16,834 bases of DNA from Acidobacteriaceae bacterium (GTDB taxonomy: Bacteria; Acidobacteriota; Terriglobia; Terriglobales; Acidobacteriaceae): assembly GCA_030040395.1 (NCBI GenBank), contig JASHTU010000396.1, positions 1 through 16,834 on the forward strand, read 5' to 3'. This document shows positions 1,718 to 16,834 of this stretch, one piece after another. The notes below the pieces were generated by a model. It saw only the letters and a program-made list of their open reading frames with translations, was not told the origin of the DNA and searched no databases. The first letter of the stretch is position 1, and every line of letters begins with the position of its first letter. The translations under genes were made by a program, and so were the position numbers.

Positions 1718-2039
1718 GGTTCGCCCTCCTCGAGACTCACTACATCAGCCCGAACTGCATGCAAACAATCAAATCGCACCTTAACAACGTCAAAAATGAA
1801 ATGTCAATATATTTTCTGAAACAAATGGTTGTGCAAAGACGCTGCTTCCCGTATCATGGACGCGTGCAGGCGAGACTTCGAATGTGCTTACTTGCTTTGA
1901 AGGAATGCGCTTGCGGCTGCTCCGCAGGCGTTTTACGCCAGCTCTGCTTGAGCCAATGCGGAATGACAGGCGGCCGGAAAATGGATATGATGGCGAAGTC
2001 AGCCGCATGAAGTTTGTAGCCGATTGAGGAATCGCAGCC
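1718..2039. other. Divergent intergenic region between DUF4038 gene and IclR gene (322 bases)
   Basis: I see no credible gene here. The half nearest the DUF4038 gene is AT-rich (about 1760-1830) and holds the candidate promoter. It also contains AAAAATGAAAT at 1792-1802, an 11-mer that recurs at 3824-3834 in the other divergent region of this locus. The half nearest the IclR gene has two small adjacent hairpins: TGCGG-CTGCT-CCGCA (1912-1926), then GGCG-TTTTA-CGCC (1927-1939). Self-regulation by the IclR protein from this region would be typical, but I cannot point to a confident operator. Confidence 0.5.
1779..1807 (-). promoter_or_regulatory. Candidate sigma70 promoter for the DUF4038 genes
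   Basis: On the minus strand there is a perfect -35 box TTGACA at 1807-1802. At 17 bases it is followed by TTAAGG, or at 18 by TAAGGT, both poor -10 boxes. A start near 1772 would give a leader of about 55 bases. The -35 box is convincing and the -10 is not. Confidence 0.4.
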
Positions 2040-3735: not shown

Positions 3736-3761
3736 GGGGCGGCTCCCGGACTTGCATAGCA

Positions 3762-3790
3762 ACTTTATCGATATGCTCAAGGGAAGTCAA
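3762..3790 (-). promoter_or_regulatory. Sigma70-type promoter for the SDR gene
   Basis: On the minus strand TTGACT (3790-3785), a 17-base spacer and TAAAGT (3767-3762). Transcription would start near 3755, about 20 bases before the ATG at 3735, with GGGAG in between. This placement also argues against the upstream TTG start at 3780. Confidence 0.55.
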
Positions 3791-4098
3791 CACAAAGGTT
3801 GCAGAAAATGCGAAGTACTCGAGAAAAATGAAATATGATTCCCGATTGTTGGTGTATATTCCATATCAGCTTGACTGGCGTGGAGGATTTGGATGCGGAC
3901 GAGCCGGAGACATGAAATGGGCGCATCATCGGCGCGCCGCCCAAATTTGGGCGGCGCGAAAGCAGCAGCAGCCCCTGATCCGGTTTCTTCGAAAACTATG
4001 GCCGCCTGACGAAGAAGACAAGCCTGGAACAGCGCCGCTGGGACGAAAAGGCGCCTGACTCACACTTAGAAGCGTAAAAGAAACATGGAGTTTCAACC
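3791..4098. other. Intergenic region upstream of the five-gene plus-strand run (about 308 bases)
   Basis: It separates the divergent SDR and CBM9-like genes. I see no gene I would support: an open frame from 3678 lacks a ribosome binding site and runs across the SDR start. The region contains an AT-rich patch (about 3824-3870) with AAAAATGAAAT at 3824-3834, also found at 1792-1802, and a perfect 26-base GC-rich palindrome at 3933-3958. No convincing plus-strand -35/-10 pair was found. Confidence 0.5.
3933..3958. promoter_or_regulatory. Perfect 26-base palindrome, candidate operator or leader hairpin
   Basis: The left half CGCGCCGCCCAAA is followed at once by its exact reverse complement, with AAATTT at the centre (3943-3948). 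It has no loop, so a dimeric protein site is as likely as an RNA hairpin. It lies about 140 bases before the CBM9-like gene and about 200 bases before the SDR start, between divergent genes. That fits an operator better than a terminator, since no plus-strand gene ends before it. Confidence 0.5.
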
Positions 4099-5238
4099 GT
4101 GATTCGTTCCGTGGTTGTGCTTTTCATCGGGGTGATTGGGACTTTGCCCGCCTGGGGGCTTGCTCGACCCGAAGTCACCTTCAAAGTTTTCCAGTTTCCT
4201 CCCAACCTGATCCCCCGCATTGACGGGAAAGCCGATGATTGGGCTATGGTTCCCGACAGCTACGCCATCGGCATGGACCAGTTGGAGAACACCGAGGCTC
4301 CGGGAGGACACGGCGTGAACCGCGATCCGAAAGACCTCGACGTGAAGGTGAAAGTAGGCTGGGTCAAGGGACTGAATCGCCTTTATTTTCTCTATGAGGC
4401 CTATAACCGGAAGTGGTGCTGCTCGCGTCCCGACCTCCATAACGACATTTTTGAAGTGGTCGCCGACGGCGATCTTTCCGGCGGGCCGCTGATTGACATT
4501 TACCATCGCGATGTGTGGACACCGGAAGCGGTGGGCGCGCTCAACGTCATCGATCCGCGCCTCAGCCGATGGGACGCCTACCACTCGTTTCAGGGCGTGC
4601 AGGCGCAGAATTACCACATCTTTACGCCGGCCGAAGACAATGACTGGGCCATGGACTGGGGATGCGCGCAGTACACCAAGGATTTTCCCTACGCCAACCA
4701 CGCCTACAACTACAGCTTCAAGCCCGGCGAGGGCGGCAAGCTGATTCTGGAGTTTTACATCACTCTGTTCGACTACGCCGGCTGCGATGGCTCGCAACGG
4801 GCTGTCGAAAGCGTGCTCACCGAAAACAAGCTGATCGGGGTCTCCTGGGCGGCGATCAAGTATCAGAGCGCGGATTCCAACCAACGCGAATTCTGGAACC
4901 TGTCGCACGTACAGACCTTTTTTGGCAACGCGTCCGAGCTGGTCGGGTTTCGGCTGATGCCGCTGGAACCGCAATACCGCAAGCCGATTGCGGCACATTG
5001 GACAGACAAGATCGTCGATGTCGATCGCGGCGTCGTCGCATTTCAGGATCAGTCCGAGGGCGAGATTACATCCTGGAAATGGAGCTTCGGAGACGGCGCT
5101 ACTTCAACCGAGCAAAATCCCATCCACCAATACGCCCCCAAACCGGGTAGATACGGTAACTACACGGTCATTCTGGATGTAAGCGGGCCCGCCGGCGCAT
5201 CGCGGCTGGTCAAAGTTTGGCAGATTCATGTTAAGTAA
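4099..5238 (+). CDS. Secreted CBM9-like domain plus PKD domain protein
   Basis: 379 residues from a GTG start with GGAG ten bases upstream. Residues 1-22 form a signal peptide (hydrophobic VVVLFIGVIGTLPAWGLA). Residues about 35-290 resemble the carbohydrate family 9-like (CBM9/DOMON-type) beta-sandwich: PRIDGKADDWAMVPDSY near its start, LYFLYEAYN, and DIFEVVADGD in the middle. Residues about 303-379 form a PKD domain with WKWSFGDGATSTEQNP and an HQY end. No catalytic motif is evident, so this is probably a secreted or periplasmic glycan-binding protein. It is first in a plus-strand run and ends only 18 bases before the GH106-like gene, so the two are very likely co-transcribed and probably act on the same substrate. 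The substrate is not determinable from sequence. Confidence 0.75.
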   Translation: MIRSVVVLFIGVIGTLPAWGLARPEVTFKVFQFPPNLIPRIDGKADDWAMVPDSYAIGMDQLENTEAPGGHGVNRDPKDLDVKVKVGWVKGLNRLYFLYEAYNRKWCCSRPDLHNDIFEVVADGDLSGGPLIDIYHRDVWTPEAVGALNVIDPRLSRWDAYHSFQGVQAQNYHIFTPAEDNDWAMDWGCAQYTKDFPYANHAYNYSFKPGEGGKLILEFYITLFDYAGCDGSQRAVESVLTENKLIGVSWAAIKYQSADSNQREFWNLSHVQTFFGNASELVGFRLMPLEPQYRKPIAAHWTDKIVDVDRGVVAFQDQSEGEITSWKWSFGDGATSTEQNPIHQYAPKPGRYGNYTVILDVSGPAGASRLVKVWQIHVK

Positions 5239-5256
5239 ACTGTGGGAGCTTGATTG

Positions 5257-7512
5257 ATGAGGAACCACGCGTGGATGGTCATCGCTGCCGGGCTGCTGTG
5301 TTCGGCGCGGGCGCATTGCGCATCGGAATCGTGGCAGACCCTCCAGTCCCCGACGGCTGCGCAAGTGGCTTCGGTTTGGCAATCGCCGCCATCCGAATTT
5401 GGCCCCGAGCCGTATTACGGATTGAACGGCCCGGTCACGCTTGAAACCGTCGAGCGAGATTTGGACACCATCAAGAAACTCGGGTTCCGCACAGTCACTG
5501 TGCAATGGGGCTATAACACGCCGGTCCAATATCTTTCGCCGGAATACTTCGCTTTCTTTCGCCAGTTCGTCGAGCAGGCGAAGCAGCGTGACATGCGGGT
5601 TTGGATTGTGGATGACGCCGGCTATCCCAGCGGCTTTGCGGGCGGACTGTTCACCACCAAAGCGCCCTCCCTGCGCATGCAGGCGCTTGAAGTCACCCAG
5701 GAAATACCGGTAAGGGGCGGCGCCACGCTGCACCGCGATCTGCCTGCGGACACCGTCAGCGCGGTAGCCGTGGATGTGGAAGGAAACGCCGTCTCGCTAC
5801 CGCTGCATAACGGCGCGCTGGACTGGACGGCGCCGCCCGGCATTTGGACCGTGCTCATCGTCGATCACGAATTCCGCACCTCGCCCACACGCTCCGACAC
5901 CAACACCCGCCGCGTAAAGGACACCGAGCAGTCTCTCGAAGACTATTTGAATCCCGCCGCCACCGAGCAGTTTCTCGAATTCACCCATGAGCAATATAAG
6001 AGGTATGTCGGCGATGAGTTTGGGAAGACGATCATGGGCTTTCGCGGCGATGAGCCGGACTATTCCATCGACGGGCTGCCCTGGACGCCGGCGTTTTTCA
6101 CCCGTTTCCGCGAAATCAAGGGCTACGACATCCAGCCGTACACGGCGCTCTTCGCCGAGAGCCCCTCGCGCAAGGACCCCGGCGTTCCCATTCATCTCAC
6201 CGACGAACAGCGGCGGATCAAAGGCGATTACTACGACGTCTTTTCGCGCATGTTCGAGGATGGCTTCTTCAAGCCCCAGGCAGTGTGGTGCGCCGAGAAC
6301 AACCTGGAGTACCAGGTGCACCTCAATCATGAGGAACGGCAAATGGAATTGACGCACAGCGAGGGCTCGTTCTTCCGCGACATGCGCTACGTCCAGGTCC
6401 CCGGAATCGACGCCATCTGGCATCAGATATGGATGGACACCATCTCCGACTATCCGCGCCTGGCCAGCTCCGTCGCGCACCTTTACGGCAAGCCGCGCGC
6501 CTTTACTGAGAGTTTCGCCGCCTACTTTCCCCGGCCCGACGTTGCGCAAGCGCGCTACATCCTCAACGAGCAATTCGTTCGCGGCGTTAACCTGGTGGAG
6601 ATGATGTATTTCCCGGCGACCTCCGCAGGGCCCAAGCCTCCGCCCTCGTATATGGGCGAGCCCGGCTTTCCGGAACTCGCCGCTTATGTCCAACGCATGA
6701 GCTACCTGATGTCGATGGGGAGACCCGACGCAGAGGTCGGCCTTTATCTTCCCTCGAGTTCCATGTGGTTGGGCGATGAAGACGCCAACCGGCAGTTTCT
6801 CTCCGCCGAACGCCTGCTCAGCGAACATCAAATCGATTTCGACATCGTAAGCGAAGATTCGCTGGCCAAAGATCTCATCGCCGGACGCGGCTACTTCCAA
6901 ACCCTCAGCGGCAATCGCTTGCGCGCCATCCTGCTTCCCGACGTGGAGATTCTCTCCGCTACGGCGCTCGAACGCCTGCGCGCATTCGCTGCCGGAGGAG
7001 GGAAAGTCATCTTCCTGGGAGACACGCCGCGCTGGATCGCCGGCCGGACCATGCGCGATGCGCGGGCCGCAACCATCGCGGACTTCGCGTGGGCGAAAAT
7101 CCTCGATGCGCAACTCGAGACCACGCCTGTGCCCGGAATGTCTCCGCCCAGCGCTCCGCCTCAGCCGCTGGTCGTCGATCCGGCCATCATGGCGGCGGTG
7201 CTGGCCGCGGCGCCGCCCACGGTGCGCACCGGCGAGCCGGAGTCGTCTCTGCGCGTTATGTCGCGCCGTTGGAGCGACGCCGACGTCTACCTGCTGTTCA
7301 ACGAGGGCTCCACTGCCATCGACGCGCTGGCAACCGTTCGCTCCCGCGGGAACAAGGCGGAACGCTGGGATCCTCAAATAGCATCCATCGCGCCTATCGC
7401 CGCCACGCGCAATGGAAGTGGCTTGTCGTTTCAGCTTCATTTGGCGCCATACGAATCGATGGTGGTGGTCATACGCTCGGTCCCGAAAGAAGATCGTCAA
7501 GACGGGCCATAG
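5257..7512 (+). CDS. Secreted GH106-like glycoside hydrolase (alpha-L-rhamnosidase candidate)
   Basis: 751 residues from the ATG at 5257, eight bases after GGGAG; a TTG immediately before it is ignored. Residues 1-22 are a signal peptide. The N-terminal part (about 35-160) holds WQSPPSEFGPEPYYG and RVWIVDDAGYPSGFAGG, a TIM-barrel start seen in GH106-like proteins. Core motifs are FRGDEPDYS (262-270, Glu266), PWTPAFFTRFREIKGYD (275-291), YQVHLNHEE (352-360) and PGIDAIWHQI (382-391). Glu266 and Glu359/360 are candidate catalytic or metal-site acids. After residue about 490 comes a Rossmann-like amidotransferase-type module (AILLPDVE; FAAGGGKVIFLG). It is shorter than characterised GH106 enzymes (about 1,000 residues or more), lacking their extra beta domains. 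Rhamnose specificity is inferred from family resemblance. It lies in a probable operon with the CBM9-like gene. Confidence 0.7.
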   Translation: MRNHAWMVIAAGLLCSARAHCASESWQTLQSPTAAQVASVWQSPPSEFGPEPYYGLNGPVTLETVERDLDTIKKLGFRTVTVQWGYNTPVQYLSPEYFAFFRQFVEQAKQRDMRVWIVDDAGYPSGFAGGLFTTKAPSLRMQALEVTQEIPVRGGATLHRDLPADTVSAVAVDVEGNAVSLPLHNGALDWTAPPGIWTVLIVDHEFRTSPTRSDTNTRRVKDTEQSLEDYLNPAATEQFLEFTHEQYKRYVGDEFGKTIMGFRGDEPDYSIDGLPWTPAFFTRFREIKGYDIQPYTALFAESPSRKDPGVPIHLTDEQRRIKGDYYDVFSRMFEDGFFKPQAVWCAENNLEYQVHLNHEERQMELTHSEGSFFRDMRYVQVPGIDAIWHQIWMDTISDYPRLASSVAHLYGKPRAFTESFAAYFPRPDVAQARYILNEQFVRGVNLVEMMYFPATSAGPKPPPSYMGEPGFPELAAYVQRMSYLMSMGRPDAEVGLYLPSSSMWLGDEDANRQFLSAERLLSEHQIDFDIVSEDSLAKDLIAGRGYFQTLSGNRLRAILLPDVEILSATALERLRAFAAGGGKVIFLGDTPRWIAGRTMRDARAATIADFAWAKILDAQLETTPVPGMSPPSAPPQPLVVDPAIMAAVLAAAPPTVRTGEPESSLRVMSRRWSDADVYLLFNEGSTAIDALATVRSRGNKAERWDPQIASIAPIAATRNGSGLSFQLHLAPYESMVVVIRSVPKEDRQDGP

Positions 7513-7613
7513 CAACCTACGCTCGGGGCCTCGAAAAGCGCGCGAAGGTTCGGCATTTCTCTCCATCAAGGAGAAAACGAAATACGGATTCAGGAAAAGG
7601 AGACGATACTCAT

Positions 7614-8705
7614 ATGAGCGCGAATGCCGGCGTGCATCCCTTGGACCGGCGAACCTTTCTGCAGAGTGCGGGAATGCTGGCTTTGAGCGCCGGCCTTGTT
7701 GAGGCCGCGGCGCTCGCGGAGAGTGCCGATGTCCACGGCGTTCGTTTGAAGACCCCGAGCGGTAAGCCGCTCAGCGGCCTCTATCCCATTCTCGAAACGC
7801 CGTTCACCCCGGAGGACAAACTCGACACGGCTGCGCTCGCGGCGGAGGTCGAGTTCATCAACCGGGGCCGGGTGAACGGCATGATTTGGCCGGTGTTCGC
7901 CAGCGGTTGGTCCACACTCTCTGACGCCGAGCGCATTGAAGGCGCAGAAACCATTCTCGCCGCGGGCAAAGGCGGGCGCGCGGCCATCGTCATTGCGGTC
8001 CAAAATGTCAACTGGGATACGGCCACTTCGGTTCGCTACGCCAAGCACGCCGCCGCGCATGGCGCTGACGCCATTGAATCCATGCCACCCAACAACGGCT
8101 GGGATCGGAGCGACGACGTCATCCTCGAGTACTACAAGACCATTGGCGCCGCCACGGATCTGCCTCTGATCGTGCAGACGCGCGGCACGATGAGCGTGGA
8201 TCTCATGGTCCGCATGTTCCAGGAGATCCCCACCATGAAGGCGACCAAGGATGAAGTGGGAAATCCCCTCGAACGCGCTCCGCAACTGATGCAGGGCTCC
8301 GGCAACAAACTGGCGGTCTGGGCAGCCGGCGGTGGAACGGGCAACGAGTTGCTCGAGGAGCTGCCGCTGGGCTTTACCGGTCTCTGCCCCACGCCTCAGT
8401 TCGCTGACCTGCTGCAGCAAGTGATGGACCTCTACTGGGCCGGCAAAAAGCGCGAGGCCTTTGATATGTTCGGGCGCGTGCAGGGTTTCGCAACCATTCC
8501 CGGCGCCACCGAGTACCTGATGATCGCTCGCGGCGTCTTCCCGGAAGATGTCAAGCTTCGCCCTCAGCCCATGGAGCCGGAAGCCCGGCGGAACATGGGT
8601 GGAGGCGGCGGAATGGGTCGCAGGCGCGCGCCTCTCACCGAGGACGAAAAGCAGTTTATTCGCGCCGCTCTCGACCAATATCTCAAGCCATATTTGAAGG
8701 CTTGA
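7614..8705 (+). CDS. Tat-signal dihydrodipicolinate synthase/N-acetylneuraminate lyase superfamily protein with altered active site
   Basis: 363 residues. The frame is open far upstream, but the ATG at 7614 with AAAAGGAG about eleven bases before it is clearly the start. Residues 11-35 form a twin-arginine signal (DRRTFLQSAG, then a mild hydrophobic stretch), predicting folded export. Residues about 53-345 match the DapA/NanA class I aldolase barrel: GLYPILETPFTPEDKLD, a TLSDAER equivalent of the usual LS-x-E-E-R, and the Schiff-base lysine candidate Lys212 in ATKDEVGN. Two things differ from the family: the loop that normally reads GTTGE is FASGW (95-99), and the LYNVP tyrosine position is VQTRG (187-191), so the usual Tyr and Thr are missing. 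A Gly/Met/Arg linker (about 322-333) precedes the C-terminal helix. It could be a periplasmic 2-keto-3-deoxy-sugar aldolase or a binding protein; the activity is open. Confidence 0.75.
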   Translation: MSANAGVHPLDRRTFLQSAGMLALSAGLVEAAALAESADVHGVRLKTPSGKPLSGLYPILETPFTPEDKLDTAALAAEVEFINRGRVNGMIWPVFASGWSTLSDAERIEGAETILAAGKGGRAAIVIAVQNVNWDTATSVRYAKHAAAHGADAIESMPPNNGWDRSDDVILEYYKTIGAATDLPLIVQTRGTMSVDLMVRMFQEIPTMKATKDEVGNPLERAPQLMQGSGNKLAVWAAGGGTGNELLEELPLGFTGLCPTPQFADLLQQVMDLYWAGKKREAFDMFGRVQGFATIPGATEYLMIARGVFPEDVKLRPQPMEPEARRNMGGGGGMGRRRAPLTEDEKQFIRAALDQYLKPYLKA

Positions 8706-8996
8706 CGTGGACAAGCCCGCGCCCTGTTTGACCCGGTTGCCCAAAGAGGTCCCCACGCACGAGTCTAATTGCGATCGCTCCCTCCTAAAACGCTTTACAG
8801 TGATGTCAGCCCTTGCAGATTGCCCTTCAATTCAAGTACACTGCCGCATATTCGCGAAAAACCTGAGGCGCCAGGCAAAGTCGAACTTCCGGAATGGTTT
8901 CGGAAAAGAAATTGCCCGGCCCCGGCACGGCGCGCACTCGGAATTTCACAACGGCTGGGAACCGACCCTGGCCGGGAACCGTGACGGGGAACAAGC
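8706..8996. other. Gap between aldolase-like gene and the 494-residue protein gene (291 bases)
   Basis: I see no convincing gene. A 99-codon open frame (8707-9006) starts at a GTG that overlaps the preceding stop region and has no recognisable protein features. The gap contains a candidate promoter at 8813-8842, suggesting the next two genes may form their own transcription unit. Confidence 0.45.
8813..8842 (+). promoter_or_regulatory. Weak candidate sigma70 promoter
   Basis: TTGCAG (8813-8818), an 18-base spacer and TACACT (8837-8842). It would give a leader of about 145 bases for the gene at 8997. The match is moderate and occurs in a long gap between genes. Confidence 0.3.
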
Positions 8997-10481
8997 ATGG
9001 GTTTGAACGCCAAATGGTCGCCGATGTACTGGCCCTGTGGACCCAAGGAGGTGGCCCGGGTCGGCGCATCGAACAGTGGAAGTTGGGAGTTGAAGAAGGT
9101 CGCGGAAGGTTGGGCTCATCCATCCGCTTTGCAGTTGCTCAAGGGCACACCTGTCAACTGCCTCCTCGTCGAATGGGCCTCCGGGGCAGCTGCTGACAAG
9201 CCGCAGCAACAAGCGCTGCAGCCTCTTCTTGATGCTGGCCGCGCGCTGGGTCTGAGTTTTGTCGGCAAAGTGTCAGCAAAAGCGAATCCGGCGCAGTCCG
9301 CCGCTGCGGGTAGAGCGGCAGGGCTCGAAGCTGTCATGCTGGAGGGCGGCGCGAGCCAGGACCTCGATTTGCCTGCGATTCTCGAGTTCCCGCGGGACAG
9401 CATCGATTGGGATGGCGCCACCGGCATCTACTCGACCACCGGCAACGTCTGGCCCGAAATCAATCTTCCCACCATGAAAGGCGACATCGCGCTCGGCGGA
9501 CCCACTGGCGACCCCTGGGTCAACTCCAATGGCTGGTTCTCCTTGCTTGCCCGCCGGATGGCCCCTGAAAAATCGCTTTGGCTCTCCATCGATCTTCCTG
9601 ACTTCCCCGGCATGTTGCCGGCTGAAAAGTACTGCCTGGCCATCGCCGACAGTCGCGTCTATGGGGCGCGCGGGATTCTTTCCCTCGACGGCCAGATGCG
9701 CACCGCGCTGTTGAACGGCGACGCCCCGGCCCTCGATGCATGGTCGCGCATCTCTGAAACCCTCTCCTTTTTCGATCGTCATGCGGCGTGGGAAAGCTAC
9801 GAGCCGATGGGGGTTTTAGCGGTGGTCTCCGATTTCACCGGGTCGAACGCGTTCATGGCCGGTGAAACGCTCAATCTTCTCAACCGCCATCAGACTCAAT
9901 TTGTGATTTTGGATCGAAGGCGCGCGCTGGCGGATCCCGTAACCAAACTGAAGGCGGTCCTCTGGATGGACGACGACGAGCCAAACCCCGCCCAGGCCCG
10001 CAACTTAATCGCTTTTGTGAGACAGGGTGGCCTGTTCATCGCCCCCAAGTATTGGGGCCCCGCGGGAATCAAGCCGCATCAGGAGGACTGGCTCTTCGGC
10101 TATGAGATTTACAATCTGGGCCAAGGCAGAATCGTGGTTGCTCCCGGCGGCTTTTCCGACCCCTATCAGCTCGCCATCGACGCGCACCTGTTGCTGGGCC
10201 GCGAAAACGATCTGTCGCGGCTGTATAACCCCAACGGCACAAACTGCTACACCAGCATGGGACCTGACGGCCGAGAGTTGGTCCAAATCCTGAATTACTC
10301 CCCGCAAGCAGCCACCTATGTGGCGCTTTGGATCAAGGCAAAGGCTCGGGGAGCGAAGCTTTGGAGCCCGCATGCGCAGGCTTCTACATCCCTGGCGGGT
10401 ATTTCCGCCAGCCAGGGGACGAGTTTCGATCTTCCCACGGTTCTCGTCCATTGCGCTGTGGAGATTGAGAGGACGGTCTGA
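8997..10481 (+). CDS. Unrecognised 494-residue protein, possibly a glycosidase-like barrel plus amidotransferase-like domain
   Basis: I do not recognise this protein by name. The start ATG follows an in-frame TGA by four codons and has GGGGA about six bases upstream, so a longer N-terminus is excluded. There is no signal peptide; it begins MGLNAKWSPMYWPCGPKE. Residues about 50-265 alternate hydrophobic strands and helices (VNCLLVEWA, GLSFVGKVSA, LEAVMLEGG, SLWLSIDLPDFPG, GARGILSLDG) in a way consistent with a TIM barrel. Residues about 275-410 (MGVLAVVSDFTGS, FVILDRRRAL, KAVLWMDDDEP, FVRQGGLFIAPKYWG) look like the Rossmann-type domain that follows the barrel in some glycosidases. The last about 75 residues look like a beta-sandwich. 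It ends two bases before the DUF362 gene, so the two are probably translationally coupled. Its function is unknown. Confidence 0.7.
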   Translation: MGLNAKWSPMYWPCGPKEVARVGASNSGSWELKKVAEGWAHPSALQLLKGTPVNCLLVEWASGAAADKPQQQALQPLLDAGRALGLSFVGKVSAKANPAQSAAAGRAAGLEAVMLEGGASQDLDLPAILEFPRDSIDWDGATGIYSTTGNVWPEINLPTMKGDIALGGPTGDPWVNSNGWFSLLARRMAPEKSLWLSIDLPDFPGMLPAEKYCLAIADSRVYGARGILSLDGQMRTALLNGDAPALDAWSRISETLSFFDRHAAWESYEPMGVLAVVSDFTGSNAFMAGETLNLLNRHQTQFVILDRRRALADPVTKLKAVLWMDDDEPNPAQARNLIAFVRQGGLFIAPKYWGPAGIKPHQEDWLFGYEIYNLGQGRIVVAPGGFSDPYQLAIDAHLLLGRENDLSRLYNPNGTNCYTSMGPDGRELVQILNYSPQAATYVALWIKAKARGAKLWSPHAQASTSLAGISASQGTSFDLPTVLVHCAVEIERTV

Positions 10482-10483
10482 CC

Positions 10484-11656
10484 ATGAACAGAAAAACTTC
10501 CCGTCGCGAGTTTCTCGGCGCCATGACCATGGCTGCCGGGGCGTACATCGCGCGTCCCGCACTGCTACAAGCGCAGCAGGCGCCCGCAGGGCGCGTCGCC
10601 GTTGCAACCTGCCCCGAGTACAACCGCCAGGTTGTCGATGCGCTGTCCACTATGTTCGATCAGCTGGGCGGCTTGGACACGCTGGTGCGCGGAAAGACGG
10701 TGGCCATCAAGCTCAACCTCACCGGCTCGGCCACGGTGCGCCTTCGCTACCTGCCGCCAGAGATCACCACTTGGCCGCATCCGCAGGTGATCTGGGCCCT
10801 GGTTCATCTGCTCGATAGAGCGGGAGCGCAACGCATACGTCTGCTTGAAAGTCCCTGGGCCACCACCGAACCGCTCCAGGAATTCATGGTCTACGCCGGC
10901 TGGCAGCCGAAGGAATTTGAGAACGCGGCCCGGCGGGTGGAATTTGAGAACACCAATTTTCTTGGGAGCGGCAAGACCTATGCGCGCTTCATGGTCCCCG
11001 GCGGCGGCTTGCTGTTCACCGGCTACGATCTGAATCACTCCTATCGGGACTGCGATGTCTTCATCTCTTTGGCCAAGCTCAAAGAGCACCGCACTACCGG
11101 CGTCACGCTGTCCATGAAGAATTGTTTCGGCATCACTCCCTGCACCATCTACAGCGATTTTGCCCCCGAAGACGAACCCCTTTTGGTTCCGCGCGGCGGC
11201 CGCTCCCTGTTCCACTTCGGCAACCGTCAGCCTCCCAAGAGCGCGCCTCCGGCGGTCAATGTCAACTCGCCGAAAGAGGGCGGTTATCGCGTGCCCCGCG
11301 CCGTCGCCGATCTCGTAGCGGCTCGTCCCATTCACCTCGCGGTCATCGACGGCATCTACAGCATGGCCGGCGGCGAAATCCCCAACCAATATGGCGGCTA
11401 CCACATCCCCGTACATCCCGGCCTGCTCATCGCCGGAACCAACTGCGTTTCCACCGATGCCGTCGCCATGGCGCTCATGGGATTTGACCCCATGGCCGAT
11501 CGCGGCGTGCATCCATTCGAGACTTCCGACAATATGCTCCACCTGGCCGAGCATCTGGGCGTTGGCACGCCCGACCTGACCCGGATTGAGGTTGCGGGCG
11601 CGCCCATTGCCAAAGCCCGTTTCGATTTCCGCAAGGTGAAGCTGTCGGCCGCTTGA
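10484..11656 (+). CDS. Tat-signal DUF362 domain protein
   Basis: 390 residues. Residues 6-30 are a twin-arginine signal (SRREFLGAMTMAAGA, then an alanine-rich region ending LLQAQQAPA), so the product is probably exported folded. The remainder matches DUF362: KTVAIKLNLTGSA (about residues 66-78), DCDVFISLAKLKEHRTTG followed by SMKNCFGITP in the middle, and near the end NCVSTDAVAMALMGFDPMAD. The ferredoxin-type CxxCxxC cluster carried by some DUF362 proteins is absent; the few cysteines are scattered. The family has no firmly established reaction, although Tat export and conserved Asp/Lys/Asn residues suggest a cofactor or metal. The start is two bases after the stop of the 494-residue protein, with GAGAGGA upstream inside that gene, so the pair most likely acts together. 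Confidence 0.85.
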   Translation: MNRKTSRREFLGAMTMAAGAYIARPALLQAQQAPAGRVAVATCPEYNRQVVDALSTMFDQLGGLDTLVRGKTVAIKLNLTGSATVRLRYLPPEITTWPHPQVIWALVHLLDRAGAQRIRLLESPWATTEPLQEFMVYAGWQPKEFENAARRVEFENTNFLGSGKTYARFMVPGGGLLFTGYDLNHSYRDCDVFISLAKLKEHRTTGVTLSMKNCFGITPCTIYSDFAPEDEPLLVPRGGRSLFHFGNRQPPKSAPPAVNVNSPKEGGYRVPRAVADLVAARPIHLAVIDGIYSMAGGEIPNQYGGYHIPVHPGLLIAGTNCVSTDAVAMALMGFDPMADRGVHPFETSDNMLHLAEHLGVGTPDLTRIEVAGAPIAKARFDFRKVKLSAA

Positions 11657-11724
11657 GTTGCAGGACAAGCGTGCTGAGACGCAGAATGTTACAAGTTAAG
11701 AATTGAAAAGGGAGGTCTCCGTAG

Positions 11725-12201
11725 ATGAAGGGCAACCCCAAGGTAATCGACGCTCTGAACGAAGCGCTGCATGAAGAGCTAACAGCCATCAACCAGTACT
11801 TTCTGCACGCCGAAATGTGCGAAAACTGGCACTATGACCGTCTCGGCGATTTGATCAAAAAGCAATCCGTCGGCGAGATGAAGCACGCGGAGATGCTCAT
11901 TGAAAGAATCCTCTTTCTGGACGGGACGCCGAATCTGACCAAGCATATCGATCTCGCCATCGGAAAAAACGTGAAAGAGCAGATCGAAAGCGACCTGAAT
12001 CTCGAAATCGGAGCCGTCGCCATGTATAACCGCGCCGCCGAGATGGCTCGTCAAGAGGGAGACAACGCCTCACGCGAATTATTCGAGCGCCTGCTCAAGG
12101 ATGAAGAAGAGCATGTCGATTTTCTTGAGGCTCAGGTCCACCAAATGACCGAGTTGGGTTACGAGCGCTACCTCAGCCAACAAATCGTGGAAAAGGAATA
12201 G
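11725..12201 (+). CDS. bfr: Bacterioferritin
   Basis: 158 residues, the normal length for bacterioferritin, with a strong AGGGAGG site upstream of the ATG. It forms a 24-subunit cytoplasmic shell that oxidises Fe(II) and stores ferric mineral. All ferroxidase ligands are in place: Glu18, Glu51, His54, Glu94, Glu127 and His130. Met52, the axial ligand for the heme between subunits, is also present (GEMKHAE), so this is a true heme bacterioferritin and not a Dps or a plain ferritin. The N-terminus MKGNPKVIDALNEAL is typical. The 68-base gap after the DUF362 gene may hold its own promoter (TTGCAG near 11657 with weak -10 candidates), so it need not belong to the glycan operon. I see no functional link to the neighbours beyond possible iron use. 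It is convergent with the GH115 gene. Confidence 0.96.
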   Translation: MKGNPKVIDALNEALHEELTAINQYFLHAEMCENWHYDRLGDLIKKQSVGEMKHAEMLIERILFLDGTPNLTKHIDLAIGKNVKEQIESDLNLEIGAVAMYNRAAEMARQEGDNASRELFERLLKDEEEHVDFLEAQVHQMTELGYERYLSQQIVEKE

Positions 12202-12349
12202 GCGCTCTCCGGCAAACCGGACACGCGACCCGGACGGATGGTGCGGAAGGTAGAAACCATGAAAACCTCTGCCTTCTTGATGCGAGTTGCGGCGTCTTGC
12301 CGGAGTTGAACCGACCCGGTCGCGCGCACGTAACCCGCTTGGTTCTCCC

Positions 12350-14599
12350 TCATTGCACGTCCGCGGAGCGATCGCCTTCATATTCCATGATGTGAAAGTA
12401 TCCTTCCCATCCCGTCCACGACGCAGGCGCCGGTAATTTGGCGAGCGGATCCTTGAGATGGGCGGCGTAGGCAGCCACCAATTCTCGGGTGCGATATACG
12501 CCGGTCAGCCAATCGCCGCGATACCAGTTCTTCCACTTGCCGTATTCGGCTGTCGACATCGATTGCTCGACCGCATCGAGAGCTTGGAGCGCTTCGGTTG
12601 CTTCAGCTTCCGCCTTCACCGTCTGGCCGGCCTGGTCGTCCTTCATGGCGCGCGCAAGTTCAAGCAGCATCCGGTTGCTCTCGCGATTGATGGCGATCAT
12701 GGTGAGCACTTCGGCCTGATAGTAGTTCCGCCGCGCGGGATCGACGAGGCTCTCCGCGGCCACGGCCACCTTCCACACTGTGTCCCAGCGCGGCTCGGCC
12801 GCTGCGCAGTCTTCAATGTCCGCGTCCAGCGCGGCTTGCCGCATCTGTGTGTCAAAGCTGGGCACAAGGCGCGGCTCAGTCCACTTGGGCGACTGGCTGG
12901 GAATCGCAATCACCTGATGCCCGCTCAATTCATCGAGAATCAGCCTCCTCGCCTCGGTATGGTAATGCTGGTCGCCATCCACGAGCGCAACTTCGCGGGC
13001 CATCGGCGGAGGCGTGTTGCCGGCCGAAGTCAGCTCCGGAAAGCCAAACCGCCGGCGCAGCGCGGGCGCCGCGAAATACGCCTTATAAATTTCTTCAAGG
13101 GCCTTTGCCGAGCGGGGGCCGAACTCCTCCGTCGCCCAGCGCTGGTAATAAGCGCCGTCCGCATCGGCGGGTAGCTCGCTGCCCATCTTTGTTCCCGTGC
13201 TCGCGGCCACGCCGCCCCACGCAGTCTCCATCACCGCACGCGCCGTCATCGCCACCGGGCGTATGTCGCTGGTGTTCAGCAGCAGGTAGGAAGTCGCTCC
13301 CGCCTTGATGTAGCGGCCCAGTTCTGATTGGATGGTTTTCACGGGAACCATCTCCGAAAGCTGGTTGGCGTTCCCGTTCATCATCGCCACGTGGAAGTAC
13401 ATGCCTTCGCCCCGCGCCACTTCGCCGCCGTCCTGCATGTCGCCGTAGCCAGTGTCGGCCCATACCAGCGTCACTTCCGGCGGGATCCGCAGATACCCCT
13501 CCTTCATGAGCCGCGCGCCCTCCGCCCAGAGATCGGACACAAACTGCGCGTTGGGATAGCGGGCGCGCACAATCTTCATCTGCGCGGCGATTGCGTCGCT
13601 GATGCGCTTGCCCAGCAGCGCATCGTTGCCCTGCACGCTGGGGTCAAGCGAGGCGTAGCTTGAGTCCGAAAGGCCGCGCAAACCCACGCTCCACAAAATC
13701 TCCTGGTCCGGCGCGTACTTCGCCACCGCGTCCTTCCACGCGCGCTCCAGAATCTCCGGATGCGTCGAGAAATTGTAGGGAACGTCCTTCGGCCAACGCG
13801 CTACGTTCAAGCCCAGCGGGATGGCGTGATGCTGATTCACAATCAGCCCGCGCGCCGCCGCCGCATGCACTTGCGCGTCGTCGGGAAAAATCCAGGTCCC
13901 CGGAACCACCATGTTGCCTTTGAGGCGCAGGATGGTCTCAAAGACGTTGTCCCACACCTTCAGCGAGATTCCGGTGTGCTCGCCCTTGGCCGCAAGAATC
14001 CATCCGGTGAGCAGGTCTTCGTCGTTGGTGAAAAAACCACGATAGCGGAAAACCGGCTGGGGATAAACGCGGGCGAAATCAGCGGGGAGCGTGATCGAGG
14101 CGCGCTTCTCCGGCTGCTTATCCGTCCACAGATACATAGGGTCAACGCCGAGCACCGTTTGCGAGAATTCATAGATGGCGTAGATCGTGCCGCGTACGTC
14201 CGCGCCCGTAAGGCACACCACGCGCTGCGGTTGACCGTGCGCCCGCGCATTCACGATAGAAAACGCAAAAGCCTCAGTCTCGGTTGTCGTGGCGCAGCCC
14301 ACACCCGCAGGCACATTAGCGCGCTGCGCAATGAGGATCGCGGTCGGCCCCGCATCCTGAAGCTGGTTCACCAGCCTGGGAGCGCGCCCGAAGACCTTCG
14401 CGAGATCGTTGCGCAGGTCTTCTGTTGCGCGGCGCACCGGCTCCGCCTCCTGCGCGCTCTCCACGATGGTCACGCGGCCGCCAATGACGGTGCGCGAGGA
14501 TTGCGCGGAAGCCATAACCGCCGGCGACAACGCCACGCCCAGGGCCGCGGCGCCGGCCATCGCATGAGGGTAAAAACGGGAACGACGAGCGGGCTTCAT
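12350..14599 (-). CDS. Secreted GH115-family alpha-glucuronidase
   Basis: 749 residues from the ATG at 14599-14597, with GAGGAG eight bases upstream on the minus strand. Residues 1-32 are a signal peptide (basic MKPARRSRF, then an alanine-rich core ending MASAQ). Residues about 38-170 form the alpha/beta domain that precedes the GH115 barrel. The barrel runs from about 183, with FRYRGFFTNDEDLLTGW, LRLKGNMVVPGTWIFPDD, LWSVGLRGLSD (302-312) and VTLVWADTGYGDMQDGG. A helical region follows to about residue 730. GH115 enzymes remove glucuronic or 4-O-methylglucuronic acid from xylan side chains. Family members are usually 850-1,000 residues with a C-terminal beta domain; this one stops at 749 and appears to lack it, which could alter dimerisation or substrate range. 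It is convergent with bfr, and its leader contains nested inverted repeats. Confidence 0.9.
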   Translation of the reverse strand: MKPARRSRFYPHAMAGAAALGVALSPAVMASAQSSRTVIGGRVTIVESAQEAEPVRRATEDLRNDLAKVFGRAPRLVNQLQDAGPTAILIAQRANVPAGVGCATTTETEAFAFSIVNARAHGQPQRVVCLTGADVRGTIYAIYEFSQTVLGVDPMYLWTDKQPEKRASITLPADFARVYPQPVFRYRGFFTNDEDLLTGWILAAKGEHTGISLKVWDNVFETILRLKGNMVVPGTWIFPDDAQVHAAAARGLIVNQHHAIPLGLNVARWPKDVPYNFSTHPEILERAWKDAVAKYAPDQEILWSVGLRGLSDSSYASLDPSVQGNDALLGKRISDAIAAQMKIVRARYPNAQFVSDLWAEGARLMKEGYLRIPPEVTLVWADTGYGDMQDGGEVARGEGMYFHVAMMNGNANQLSEMVPVKTIQSELGRYIKAGATSYLLLNTSDIRPVAMTARAVMETAWGGVAASTGTKMGSELPADADGAYYQRWATEEFGPRSAKALEEIYKAYFAAPALRRRFGFPELTSAGNTPPPMAREVALVDGDQHYHTEARRLILDELSGHQVIAIPSQSPKWTEPRLVPSFDTQMRQAALDADIEDCAAAEPRWDTVWKVAVAAESLVDPARRNYYQAEVLTMIAINRESNRMLLELARAMKDDQAGQTVKAEAEATEALQALDAVEQSMSTAEYGKWKNWYRGDWLTGVYRTRELVAAYAAHLKDPLAKLPAPASWTGWEGYFHIMEYEGDRSADVQ

Positions 14600-14727: not shown

Positions 14728-14905
14728 GCAATCGCAGTGTCAGGCCGATGCCGAAGGCCCCCGAATGCCAATCGGTCTGCGCGGCCTCCTGGGCGGAAAT
14801 TTGATTCGCGTCACGAATTATACACAGAGATCGCAGACCCTCAGGTTTTGCGGCGCTGTCTTAAAAGTGCGTTGATGCGAAAACAACGAGCGCTTGCAAT
14901 CGTAG

Positions 14906-14917: not shown

Positions 14918-15190
14918 ATGAGGCCGAGAGGATTAGCGACACTCAAACGCTTGCTCATTCAGCTTGACGATACGCTCTCAATACCGAACAGCACAGCGAG
15001 AGCCAAGGAATTGCTCACCGTGGCGCGTGCTCTGACAGACGATCTCCTGAATCAATCCAAGCTACCCGCGGCCGCCATTCTCGGCGCGAAGGGTGGCTCT
15101 GTGACCGCCCAAAAGGGTTCCGAATACTTCCGCCAGCTTGCGGCGAAGCGCAAGACTAACGCGGGCGGCAGACCACGCAAACAGCCGTAA
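14918..15190 (+). CDS. Small basic protein of unknown function
   Basis: 90 residues. I do not recognise a named family. The first two thirds look helical (LKRLLIQLDDTL, then RAKELLTVARALTDDLLNQ). The tail is strongly basic: GAKGGSVTAQKGSEYFRQL, then AAKRKTNAGGRPRKQP. The tail ends with GGRPRK, an AT-hook-like basic core, so nucleic-acid binding is plausible. No ribosome binding site precedes the ATG; instead a possible -10 box lies six bases upstream, suggesting a leaderless transcript. A terminator-like hairpin lies 29 bases after the stop. Base composition is less GC-rich than the glycosidase genes to the left. Coding status is supported by the promoter/terminator framing and sensible composition, not by a recognised homologue. 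Confidence 0.6.
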   Translation: MRPRGLATLKRLLIQLDDTLSIPNSTARAKELLTVARALTDDLLNQSKLPAAAILGAKGGSVTAQKGSEYFRQLAAKRKTNAGGRPRKQP

Positions 15191-15219
15191 TCCCTTAAAA
15201 TAGGCCCAAGAAACGAAAA

Positions 15220-15239
15220 GCCCGGCGCGAGGCCGGGGC
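15220..15239 (+). terminator. Terminator-like hairpin after the small basic protein gene
   Basis: GCCCGGC (15220-15226) pairs with GCCGGGGC (15232-15239) with one bulged G, around the loop GCGAG. AAAA precedes it and only ATTT follows, so the U-tract is short. Placed 29 bases after the stop codon at 15190, it fits an intrinsic terminator of moderate strength. Confidence 0.5.
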
Positions 15240-15302
15240 ATTTCGATGGTGCGGCTGGTTACCCCCATCGTAACGCCCTATTGCGCCTGGAGCAAGGCTG
15301 CG

Positions 15303-16061
15303 ATGGGAAAGACATTTGAAGTGTCCGACATGCCGCCGCTCACGCTAGAGATGCATGGCAAGTTGCGAGCAATGGAAAAAGATTTGCGATTAGCACTTAG
15401 CAGGTGCTGCAATGACCGTGAACTGATTGACCCGCAAGCAGCGTTTGAATATGCGCGAACCTACGCAACTCGGTTTTACGATTGCTTCTACGATTTCTAT
15501 TCTCAGATTCCAAATCCCGCCTATAGACCGCATTGGCGTCCAGCATCAGAGGCGTTCGCGTTTCAGCGCGTCGTGAAATGCATCCAGAACGATTTTCACA
15601 TTGAGCTGTTCTTCAAGAACAATCCCGACCGCGTGGATCGAATCAAAAGGACAATCACGGACCACTCGAAGCTCGCTAAGGATTCAGAGGTTAACTCCTT
15701 CACTCCAACCGCGCGGCAGATCGCTGAGTACGCTAAGTCTGGAATCGATATTGTTTCCGGCCCGCCCCTCCTTAAAATGGCCGTTGCTGCTTGGGAATCG
15801 TCTGGGAGACGCGCGGTCACAGCGGCTCCCTCAGAAGCCGCGAAGCATAGGTTCTCTGGGCAAATCAAGAGCGAGACTGCGGCGCGAAAGCTGAAAGCGT
15901 TCATGGAGAAACGAGGATTGGGGCAAACGGAATTCGCCATTAAAGCAAACACAAGCGATAAGACCATTCGTAAATTTCTCCGAACGGGGTCAATCAAGAG
16001 GAGCATTCTGACCGAAATAGCAACGGCAATGGGCACCACAAAAGAGGAATTGCTAAGTTAG
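15303..16061 (+). CDS. Protein with C-terminal Cro/C1-type helix-turn-helix and unrecognised N-terminal domain
   Basis: 252 residues from the ATG at 15303, which has GGAGCAAGG just upstream. The frame is also open from an ATG at 15246, but that start directly abuts the terminator-like hairpin and has no proper ribosome binding site. The last about 64 residues form an XRE (Cro/C1) helix-turn-helix: ARKLKAFMEKRGLGQTEFA, then DKTIRKFLRTG, then LTEIATAMGTTKEELL. The N-terminal about 185 residues are helical and charged, with an aromatic stretch (YATRFYDCFYDFYSQIPNP) that I cannot place in a family. A C-terminal rather than N-terminal HTH suggests a sensor or effector domain joined to a DNA-binding tail. 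The setting (terminator before, phased repeats and a tRNA after, transposase beyond) is typical of mobile or accessory DNA. A likely role is regulation of that segment or of itself; this is inference. Confidence 0.65.
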   Translation: MGKTFEVSDMPPLTLEMHGKLRAMEKDLRLALSRCCNDRELIDPQAAFEYARTYATRFYDCFYDFYSQIPNPAYRPHWRPASEAFAFQRVVKCIQNDFHIELFFKNNPDRVDRIKRTITDHSKLAKDSEVNSFTPTARQIAEYAKSGIDIVSGPPLLKMAVAAWESSGRRAVTAAPSEAAKHRFSGQIKSETAARKLKAFMEKRGLGQTEFAIKANTSDKTIRKFLRTGSIKRSILTEIATAMGTTKEELLS

Positions 16062-16244: not shown

Positions 16245-16270
16245 ACGGGGAGCATTTGACTGCTCCCCGT
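16245..16270 (+). other. Perfect 10-base-pair hairpin just upstream of the tRNA
   Basis: ACGGGGAGCA (16245-16254), loop TTTGAC, then the exact reverse complement (16261-16270). It ends five bases before the first tRNA base. There is no T-run after it, so it is not a standard terminator; it might be a processing or recombination element. Confidence 0.6.
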
Positions 16271-16275
16271 ATCCT

Positions 16276-16360
16276 GCGGGCGTGGTGGAACGGTATACAC
16301 AGCGGTTTTCCAAACCGCCGCCTCTGCCGGGGCTTGTGGGTTCGAGTCCCACCGCCCGCA
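16276..16360 (+). tRNA. Class II tRNA with glycine anticodon UCC and leucine-like body
   Basis: 85 bases, CCA not encoded. Acceptor GCGGGCG (16276-16282) pairs perfectly with CGCCCGC (16353-16359); the discriminator is A (16360). The D arm GTG/CAC has loop GAACGGTATA, including A14 and G18-G19. Anticodon stem GCGGT/ACCGC encloses loop TTTCCAA, giving anticodon TCC at 16309-16311 (reads GGA/GGG). The variable arm is 17 bases with a five-pair stem (GCCTC/GGGGC, one G-U) and loop TGCC. T arm GTGGG/CCCAC has the canonical loop TTCGAGT. A long variable arm and this D arm belong to Leu/Ser-type tRNAs, not to glycine tRNAs; A73 excludes the usual serine G73. The acceptor stem GCGGGCG is glycine-like. 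It is either a missense-type or chimeric tRNA, or a mobile-element tRNA that may not be used in normal translation. Confidence 0.85.
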
Positions 16361-16393: not shown

Positions 16394-16423
16394 TTGACAA
16401 ACAGCGAGCGCTTGCTGTATTAT
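16394..16423 (+). promoter_or_regulatory. Strong sigma70 promoter of the IS1-like gene, predicted leaderless
   Basis: TTGACA (16394-16399), 18-base spacer, TATTAT (16418-16423). Only six bases (CTAACC) separate the -10 box from the ATG at 16430, so transcription should begin at or next to the start codon. The spacer contains CGAGCGCTTGC (16405-16415), shared with the promoter region at 14887-14897 and nearly palindromic (GCGAGCGCTTGC). Confidence 0.7.
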
Positions 16424-16429
16424 CTAACC

Positions 16430-16834
16430 ATGATGAGTGAGACACAATCCGCCTCAATGACGTGCCAAGAATGCGGCGCGGACTGCCAGCGGTTCGGCAG
16501 GCACCGCAACAATTTGCGCCGTTTCCGCTGCCCGAAGTGCCACAAGACATACACCGAAGGGCACCAGCGCACTCTTGGCACCATGTACGTCTCGCAGGAT
16601 CGCGCTGTTATGGCGCTGCAGCTTTTGCTTGAGGGAAACTCAATCCGCAGCACAGAACGGATTACCGGCATGGACCGGAATACCATCATGTCGTTGCTGC
16701 TCAAGGCTGGTGAGCGTTGCCAGCATCTCATGGACGAAAAGATTCGTGGGTTAAATGTACAAGATGTGGAAGTGGACGAAATCTGGGGCTACGTTTTCAA
16801 AAAAGAAGCTCACAAGTTTAAGCACGAAGAGGGC
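16430..16834 (+). CDS. IS1-like transposase, N-terminal part (cut by window edge)
   Basis: 135 codons are visible with no stop; the gene runs off the right edge. A second ATG at 16433 is an equal alternative start. Residues 11-40 form a zinc ribbon (CQEC at 12-15, CPKC at 34-37), as in IS1 InsA. Residues about 55-95 form a helix-turn-helix (LEGNSIRSTERITGMDRNTI). VEVDEIWGYV (about 113-122) holds the first catalytic Asp of the IS1 DDE domain. In IS1 itself the two parts are joined by a frameshift; here they lie in one frame, as in single-frame IS1 relatives. No ribosome binding site precedes the start, fitting a leaderless mRNA from the promoter at 16394-16423. Terminal inverted repeats cannot be checked because the right end is outside the window, so it may also be a domesticated or phage-borne relative. 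Confidence 0.85.
   Translation, partial: MMSETQSASMTCQECGADCQRFGRHRNNLRRFRCPKCHKTYTEGHQRTLGTMYVSQDRAVMALQLLLEGNSIRSTERITGMDRNTIMSLLLKAGERCQHLMDEKIRGLNVQDVEVDEIWGYVFKKEAHKFKHEEG

Follow-up and report, generated by a model that had tools for sequence, protein, structure and literature searches.

The nearest known parallels to the tRNA gene described here are the nev-tRNAs of nematodes and the allo-tRNAs of bacteria. The former are class II tRNAs whose anticodons are those of Gly(CCC) and Ile(UAU), and for which the passages of PMC4300185 that deal with them report charging with leucine in vitro and no detectable misincorporation in C. elegans. The allo-tRNAs, known from Acidobacteria, Proteobacteria and Clostridia, have 8/4 or 9/3 structures, are of the Ser or Ala type and cover 35 of the 64 codons (Mukai et al. 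2017, as recounted in the relevant part of PMC7609411). The same part of that account states that SerRS does not use the anticodon and that allo-tRNAs with Leu anticodons inserted serine in E. coli, describes one allo-tRNA(UAU) pseudogene that overlaps a transposon-related gene, and leaves open the role of contradictory-anticodon tRNAs in Acidobacteria. The open-access literature, as covered by titles and the beginnings of abstracts, yielded no description of tRNAs borne by insertion sequences; the subscription literature lies mostly outside this coverage, so priority is not firm.

The gene in question lies in a stretch of 16,834 nucleotides from an Acidobacteriaceae bacterium (hereafter the window; loci, genomes and protein homologues are labelled L, G and P, the window's own genome being G000). 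Positions 16276-16360 of its forward strand hold an intact 7/5 class II tRNA gene with a glycine anticodon and A73. The Rfam model RF00005 matches exactly this interval (57.3 bits against a gathering score of 29, E 2.5e-10), and ARAGORN calls a tRNA at the same site, one base wider at either end, likewise with the anticodon UCC, which occupies 16309-16311. Read directly, the gene has a 7-bp acceptor stem, a 5-bp T stem and a 5-bp anticodon stem, with 20 of 20 stem pairs formed, an anticodon loop UUUCCAA with U33 and A37, a variable region of 17 nucleotides including a 4-bp arm, a D arm reading GUGGUGGAA...GUAUACAC, and a 3' end with A73 in which CCA is not encoded. The two programs and the direct reading agree with the sequence-only reading, which had described a 7/5 cloverleaf with a 17-base variable arm, a Leu-type D arm, A73 and UCC, and had set its acceptor branch apart from those of the 8/4 or 9/3 tRNAs. 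The minimum-energy fold (-42.6 kcal/mol) differs from the cloverleaf (-35.4), which says little because the minimum is likewise a non-cloverleaf in two of three ordinary Leu tRNAs folded from the same genome.

Like the nev-tRNAs, the window gene combines a class II body, a foreign (Gly) anticodon and an intact cloverleaf, a likeness of kind and not of descent; unlike those nuclear genes of nematodes, the family to which it belongs is bacterial, resides inside insertion sequences and includes stop, Pro and Ala anticodons in addition. With the allo-tRNAs it shares the class II form, a non-cognate anticodon and the phylum, and two loci described below, L273 (UAU and UUA, G73) and L194 (UAU, G73), look related to them in kind; however, the allo-tRNAs are 8/4 or 9/3 molecules of Ser or Ala identity, whereas the window gene has a 7/5 branch, A73 and arms of the Leu type. 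Its variable arm, A14, A73 and D arm resemble those of ordinary bacterial tRNA-Leu, but the latter have A35 in all their anticodons, in place of which we find UCC together with a Gly-like acceptor stem. The elements that carry the family are comparable to IS1/IS1595 transposons with passengers in having a transposase, terminal inverted repeats and 8-bp target duplications, the difference being their cargo, a tRNA accompanied by a small regulator.

Judged by sequence comparison, the body of the window tRNA is of mixed type, its class II arm, A14, A73 and D arm pointing toward Leu and its acceptor toward Gly. Of the hallmarks of a tRNA-Leu, the class II variable arm, A14 and A73 are all present, and the anticodon is UCC as against NAG or YAA. 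A tRNA-Gly has a class I body and U73, as against the 17-nucleotide variable region and A73 seen here; T73 occurs in six of six Gly references, one of them from the window's own genome. C35, C36, G1-C72 and C2-G71 are glycine elements. The acceptor stem with base 73 scores 13.0 against the best Gly reference and 7.0 against the best Leu reference, Gly being the highest of the 20 isotypes, which bears out the earlier remark that the first acceptor pairs are Gly-like. The T arm does not discriminate between isotypes in such a comparison by parts, and the D arm scores 12 for Glu, 11 for Leu and 6 for Gly, the window gene being the exception among 18 relatives, 17 of which have a D arm nearest Leu, alone or tied. 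An initial comparison of whole bodies with the anticodon masked gave Leu 50 and Gly 38 for the window gene and Leu as best in 18 of 18; six of the 13 Leu references (L027, L032, L038, L040, L041 and L082), however, had been recruited by similarity to the window tRNA itself, and the odds given to charging with leucine were lowered, and those given to glycine raised, accordingly. Against unbiased references, comprising only genes from RF00005 searches of G000, G008 and G255, the window gene scores Gly 38.0 and Leu 36.0, and Leu is best in 13 of the 18 aligned genes plus one tie, and in 11 of 11 further UGG/UGC genes (24 of 29 plus one tie overall), with the UUA gene of L053 scoring Gly first. 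All 18 aligned relatives have G1-C72 and 15 of them have C2-G71, and Gly-like acceptors are also seen in the UUA genes of L053 and G020. As the Gly-like acceptor is common to UUA relatives, it is no adaptation to the UCC anticodon; from these comparisons, the window gene is a Leu-type class II frame with a Gly-like acceptor helix that it shares with UUA relatives.

The gene very probably lies in a tRNA-bearing transposon, the parts of which, all on the forward strand, follow the same order as in L183/L184, namely small ORF, leader, XRE-type ORF, hairpin, tRNA, promoter and IS1-like transposase. Repeat comparison identified a probable left terminal inverted repeat of this IS1-like element at 14852..14873 (GGCGCTGTCTTAAAAGTGCGTT), which has 3 mismatches in 22 positions to GGTAGTGTCTTAAAAGTGCGTT, all at outer positions, where the outermost bases are degenerate; GGTAGTGTCTTAAAAGTGCGTT recurs letter for letter in L191 (G035), and the repeats of L184 and L185 differ from it at 1-2 positions. 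The right repeat and the target duplication are beyond view because the contig ends inside the transposase. Contig C471 was considered as the other end of the element and rejected, its transposase end (L085) having a different repeat and, by eye, no matching duplication. The called small ORF at 14918..15190, a passenger of the element, encodes 90 amino acids with a C-terminus of the form ...AKGG...AAKRKTNAGGRPRKQP; its 3' part has matches in the DNA of L181, L182 and L183, similar ends are visible by eye in L184 and L194, and no family in Pfam, PADLOC or PHROG scores over threshold. The conserved leader at 15207..15278, with two potential hairpins by eye, precedes the XRE-type ORF and may be a regulatory RNA. 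It is 90% identical over 72 bases in L026, is present in L180, L181 and L183 and partly in L182, and matches 10 of 80 genomes of the genus at E <= 1e-4, the window's own included, with three of these matches spanning only 26-48 bases; in one genome of the genus (G035) it recurs as a close inverted pair (L046, L052).

The ORF that follows the leader (15303..16061) encodes an XRE/Cro-type regulator of 252 amino acids, with an all-helical N-terminal domain and an HTH, and has 41 homologues besides itself (P0002-P0042). Its HTH matches Pfam below cut-off as well as PHROGs; in the AF2 model (pLDDT 87, pTM 0.53) the C-terminal domain resembles 434-repressor-type HTH domains by Foldseek, all at E > 0.05, and the structure search brought up nothing beyond HTH resemblances and long proteins of unrelated kinds, all at E > 0.001. 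Across this regulator family the helical N-terminal half is conserved and the C-terminal HTH differs, the N-terminal domain having no PDB match at E <= 0.001. A GC-rich hairpin lacking a T-run (16245..16270; -20 kcal/mol, z -5.4) ends 5 nucleotides before the tRNA, and hairpins in the same place are discernible by eye in L026, L043, L045, L177, L180, L181 and L183. Downstream of the tRNA, a sigma-70-like promoter, TTGACA-18-TATTAT, was recognized by eye at 16394..16423, with the same layout in L183, ahead of the 5' part of an IS1-like transposase (16430..16834), the contig ending 474 bases from the tRNA. Over residues 13-133 of its counterpart in the complete element L079, this fragment shows 54% identity. 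Its best NCBIfam match, NF033558 (transpos_IS1), reaches 58.4 bits, under the cut-off of 100; the L079 transposase scores 84.3 on the same model and passes Pfam PF03400 (30.3, cut-off 24.1).

Among the loci collected, 13 elements have paired repeats and perfect 8-bp target duplications that enclose such a tRNA, the second UCC gene included, with an inverted-repeat minimum over the 13 of 18/24 or 16/20. Four of these, from 21 sources scanned, are IS1-like: L079 and L080 with UUA, L192 with UCC (G255, from another family) and L194 with UAU on a Ser-type body with G73. The other nine are IS1595-like (L190, L245, L247, L249, L250, L252, L255, L257 and L258); beyond L190, eight of 13 loci had repeats of at least 16/20, a perfect 8-bp duplication and the tRNA inside. 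The scans of L190 and the other IS1595-like loci sought only repeat pairs that enclose both the tRNA and the transposase. As a control, 60 random 1 kb x 1 kb pairings of unrelated stretches yielded no repeat better than 13/20 together with a perfect duplication. In L077 and L079 the inverted repeats enclose the transposase, an ORF, the tRNA and a small ORF, L077 having a 6-base duplication by eye. L184 (UUA) has both repeats and no clean duplication, and L191 a perfect 8-bp duplication round one stretch in which no tRNA was found. IS1-like or IS1595-like transposases adjoin many of these tRNAs. We regard the anatomy of the family as described here as nearly certain.

The transposases were also used as queries, and since these queries came from elements known to bear a tRNA, the sampled rates are not valid for the transposase families at large. 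The IS1-like transposase of L079 has matches in 112 of 399 genomes of the class; in 30 loci fetched through it ARAGORN found a tRNA in nine, comprising three UUA genes already known, the new UCC gene in L111 (= L192) and five class I tRNA-likes, to which Rfam adds the UAU gene of L102 (= L194) and, in L093, a truncated class I gene. In 60 further IS1-type places, mostly more distant, no odd class II tRNA was detected by a custom finder that overlooks genes having C33 or an unusual T loop. L190, an element whose own tRNA was found by similarity and the custom finder, has an IS1595-like transposase with matches in 119 of the 399 genomes, and 13 of 30 loci fetched through this transposase contain a tRNA by ARAGORN or Rfam. 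Class II tRNAs whose anticodon is foreign occur in 12 of the 30 loci, with UGG in seven, UGC in four and a UAU+UUA tandem with G73 in the remaining one. Rfam supports the seven UGG genes (two in permissive mode only) and the tandem; the four UGC genes, called by ARAGORN alone, have no Rfam match even at E <= 1, and their T loop reads UCC instead of UUC, with three of the four lying in complete elements. PADLOC gave a single marginal match (LmuB, 14.9 bits), in the ORF of another element.

Relatives of the window gene in Acidobacteriota bear the anticodons UUA (stop), UGG (Pro), UGC (Ala) and UCC, with UAU and UUA occurring on Ser-type bodies. When 60 relatives were searched, nine genomes gave a match, the window's own included; the single close homologue, in G020 of the same genus, is 86% identical and reads UUA, the rest being weak. 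The two loci share two further stretches, the pre-tRNA hairpin and the 72-base leader about 1 kb upstream, the ORF between them being much more diverged. BLAST of the 399 class genomes gave eight matches at E <= 1e-5: the window, four UUA genes (G257, G185, G419 and G191) and three ordinary Leu genes (UAA, CAA and UAG), a lower bound inasmuch as G255, although part of the sample, has a UCC gene that was not picked up. An anticodon-agnostic pattern, skewed to close kin because it contains the UUA-type anticodon stem, matched 21 loci in 84,980 species genomes; seven hold a Leu-type class II tRNA, all UUA (one in Gemmatimonadota, three in Acidobacteriota on the same contigs as those of G257, G185 and G020, and three in Alphaproteobacteria), and the other 14 fall in ordinary Cys, Trp and Ser genes, while one of three viral pattern loci is UUA. 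Through the leader we recovered tRNAs in G003 and G008 that read UGG and have 31-nucleotide variable regions, both missed by ARAGORN, and further searching added G015 and G031, also UGG. The regulator family yielded four loci beyond the window in 300 family genomes, again a lower bound given that the diverged regulator of G008 went unmatched: L180 with UGG, L181 with a degenerate GCA gene, L183 with UUA, and L182, in which no tRNA was found. Some members look worn, L026 being without GG in the D loop, L036 having C33 and L181 (GCA) being degenerate. In plasmids, two UUA genes had no match (E 1e-6 and 1e-8) and the lone match of the window tRNA is an ordinary Leu(UAA), and matches in phages are annotated as tRNA-Leu.

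UUA (ochre) class II tRNAs outside Acidobacteriota were observed at L060:2064-2147, L064:2052-2136 and L068:1855-1938 on the forward strand and at L053:7497-7580 and L074:1626-1709 on the reverse strand, their hosts being Alphaproteobacteria (L060 and L064, which adjoin IS1595 transposases, belong here), Gemmatimonadota and a viral contig; no paired repeats with a duplication were found around the UUA genes of L053, L060 and L064. Homologues beside IS1-like genes in other acidobacteria, which the sequence-only reading had proposed to look for, were thus found. Its recognition of a class II tRNA with Leu features, a Gly anticodon and a link to mobile DNA stands, though it missed the existence of a family with several anticodons, and its placement of the tRNA merely among accessory genes was too weak, given that the gene sits in an IS-like element.

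An alignment of 18 genes (11 UUA, five UGG and two UCC) was used to assess conservation. Stem cells are paired in 99.2% of 358 cases, as against a mean of 81.2% in shuffles and 34-61% when the partners are offset by 1-3 columns. Both partners have changed at 14 of 20 pairs, and none of 500 shuffles equalled either figure. A14 and A73 are present in 18 of 18, A73 also in 11 further UGG/UGC genes, and in the genes checked the anticodon loop has a purine at 37 throughout and U33 in all but one, nearly all anticodons of the family having U34. In pairwise comparisons of elements, L257 and L258 are 85.9% identical with 100% identical tRNAs, none of 1797 other segments compared being as conserved; L077 and L079 have tRNAs of 89.5% and elements of 57.4% identity, with 0 of 2719 segments as conserved. 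Three other comparisons were less clear or negative, the segments as conserved as the tRNA numbering 133 of 1730 for the window versus L184, 292 of 2056 for L190 versus L245 and 1259 of 2006 for L250 versus L252; in the last pair the tRNA is oriented differently with respect to the transposase, so the alignment is not meaningful. When the anticodons were masked and a tree was built from 37 class II genes, the UCC gene of G255 fell together with the UGG genes and ten ordinary tRNA-Leu genes on one side of a branch with support 97/93, and the window gene joined the UUA genes on the other. Six label changes are required on this tree for the odd genes taken together; its bootstrap had not settled, and tRNA trees are weak in general. 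This arrangement is suggestive of two separate origins of the UCC anticodon.

The codons that the window tRNA would read, GGA and GGG, contribute 53 and 47 of the 302 Gly codons in nine window genes. With these 100 of 302, targeting of rare codons was rejected as an explanation, and as GGA/GGG are not rare, efficient insertion of leucine at them should be harmful. A normal tRNA-Gly(UCC), for which the sequence-only reading had suggested a search, is absent from the other 24 tRNAs of the 77%-complete assembly of G000, and none was seen among 35 of the 39 tRNAs of G255 that were read. In the sister genome G008 such a gene clusters with two Thr genes and a Tyr gene, which are likewise missing from the 25 tRNAs of G000; assembly gaps may therefore explain the missing gene, and the outcome of that search is uninformative. 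Replacement of a missing host tRNA-Gly(UCC) was set aside for the same reason, the two Thr genes and the Tyr gene of the cluster being absent from the tRNAs read in G000 and in G255. Judging from their coding sequences, the elements seem able to express their own genes without the tRNA. Recoding of these was discarded after no cognate codon was found at nine Leu-conserved columns of 32 IS1595-type transposases, 15 of them beside a tRNA, a weak test. In UUA elements the main reading frames contain no in-frame TAA, the L077 transposase being apparently frameshifted; avoidance of UAA as a stop by these elements was rejected, the regulator and small ORF of L184 and the regulator of L065/L081 ending in TAA.

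LeuRS does not use the anticodon. Host LeuRS would, on this basis, charge the window tRNA with leucine, and the features of the gene make charging with Leu rather than Gly the more likely outcome. We picture the tRNA as a passenger of an IS1-like transposon, within an Acidobacteriota family of transposon-borne class II tRNAs that pair Leu-type (in a few cases Ser-type) arms with anticodons of other amino acids or stop codons. Once charged with leucine it would compete with tRNA-Gly at GGA/GGG as a mobile missense suppressor, just as UUA relatives would act as ochre suppressors, with the regulator and the hairpin holding the level of the tRNA low. What the element gains can only be guessed at; a conditional effect on translation by the host or by rival elements might aid its persistence. 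Most of the odd class II tRNAs of these elements have a Leu or Ser frame, the two kinds whose synthetases ignore the anticodon; such frames with a kept loop and U34 are what is expected if the tRNAs must stay chargeable while the codon changes, and we therefore hold a leucine-charged mobile missense tRNA for GGA/GGG, used in translation, to be the most likely reading, with a chance that we place just short of even. Counting against it are the Gly score of the window gene (38.0 versus 36.0 for Leu with the unbiased references), its Gly-like acceptor and the worn members of the family. More tentatively, and at appreciably less than an even chance, small transposons of soil bacteria may bear a standing set of Leu- or Ser-charged tRNAs repeatedly re-tuned to UUA, UGG, UGC, UCC and UAU, regulated by their fellow passengers, that make codons ambiguous in any host; were this true, the genetic code of a host would depend on its insertion sequences.

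Under a different reading, the RNA would serve the transposon outside translation, as a regulatory or processing element or as an aminoacyl donor, its anticodon being free to drift. The tRNA does stand directly before the transposase in the window, L091, L183, L187 and L190. Other IS1-like transposases are preceded by RNAs that resemble class I tRNAs or tmRNA, some of them rule-breaking, and PMC7609411 reports that certain allo-tRNA(UAU) relatives were unusable in E. coli translation and had been proposed as transposon or toxin-antitoxin parts. Drift, however, does not predict so few triplets, nearly all with U34, and the purine at 37 in all genes checked and U33 in all but one also tell against such a role, as does the position of the tRNA far from or divergent to the transposase in L077, L079 and L192; we regard it as unlikely, if deserving of attention. 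Charging with glycine, with normal reading of GGA/GGG on an unusual body, draws on the acceptor score (13.0 versus 7.0 for Leu), the two-point lead of Gly over the whole body with unbiased references and the presence of C35, C36, G1-C72 and C2-G71. It is at odds with A73, where six of six Gly references have T73, with the class II arm and with a D arm far from Gly (6.0), and it would leave the UUA, UGG and UGC relatives unexplained; moreover, the UUA gene of L053 with the same Gly-like acceptor score is also Gly-first, so that the likeness is independent of the anticodon. We consider this reading improbable, though for the window gene it stays a serious competitor.

The patchy spread of these genes, with at least five UUA/UCC genes including that of the window in the BLAST of 399 class genomes, and the worn members L026, L036 and L181 would suit host Leu tRNA genes that were captured as neutral hitch-hikers and whose anticodons then drifted. 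Changes on both sides at 14 of 20 pairs, an identical tRNA in elements that are 14% different, the carriage of such tRNAs by two transposase families and the probable double attainment of UCC make this quite improbable. That faulty sequencing or assembly turned a UUA gene into one with UCC is barely credible: the assembly is indeed fragmented and holds one copy, which lies 474 bases from the end of its contig, but relative to L026 the gene has two anticodon changes and one at position 32 with its stems intact, the D loop and variable arm differ independently, and the second UCC gene sits in a complete element of another family (L192). Returning to the leucine-charged missense tRNA, its wider bearing is that genetic-code ambiguity could spread by transposition if the tRNAs are charged and used; if they are not used, insertion sequences have recruited a translation-shaped RNA. 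In either case the results tie contradictory-anticodon tRNAs to complete transposons of two families, with exact elements, neighbours and anticodons, and the set provides natural candidates for Leu-type suppressor tRNAs.

Several other RNAs were observed beside transposases of these types. L273:907-1090, on the reverse strand, contains the tandem of Ser-type tRNAs, UAU then UUA, next to an IS1595-like transposase; the pair is allo-tRNA-like, and its second member also matches tRNA-Sec (RF01852, 56.6 bits). Class I tRNA-likes precede same-strand IS1-like transposases at L098:2557-2631, L101:2574-2647, L105:2551-2625 (-), L100:1302-1375 (+) and L093:1-71 (+), with a gap to the transposase of about 120-135 bases in L098, L101, L105 and L100. 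Several of them have Ser anticodons (GCU, ACU, CGA) and break common rules (C33 in L098, G56 in L101), and a hairpin of the GTAGC...ACTAC type follows several by eye. Matches to the tmRNA model RF00023 (gathering score 47) occur before IS1-like transposases at L108:2565-2636 (-), with 45.8 bits, and L106:2568-2770 (-), with 14.6 bits. At L107:1170-1380 (+), a match to the group I intron model RF00028 (49.3 bits, gathering score 50) apparently interrupts, as judged by eye, a Leu-type tRNA beside an IS1-like transposase. In the window itself, the host genes to the left of the element (248-14599) include some for carbohydrate use (apiosidase-like, GH106 and GH115) and others for an IclR regulator, a ferritin-like protein and a short-chain dehydrogenase.
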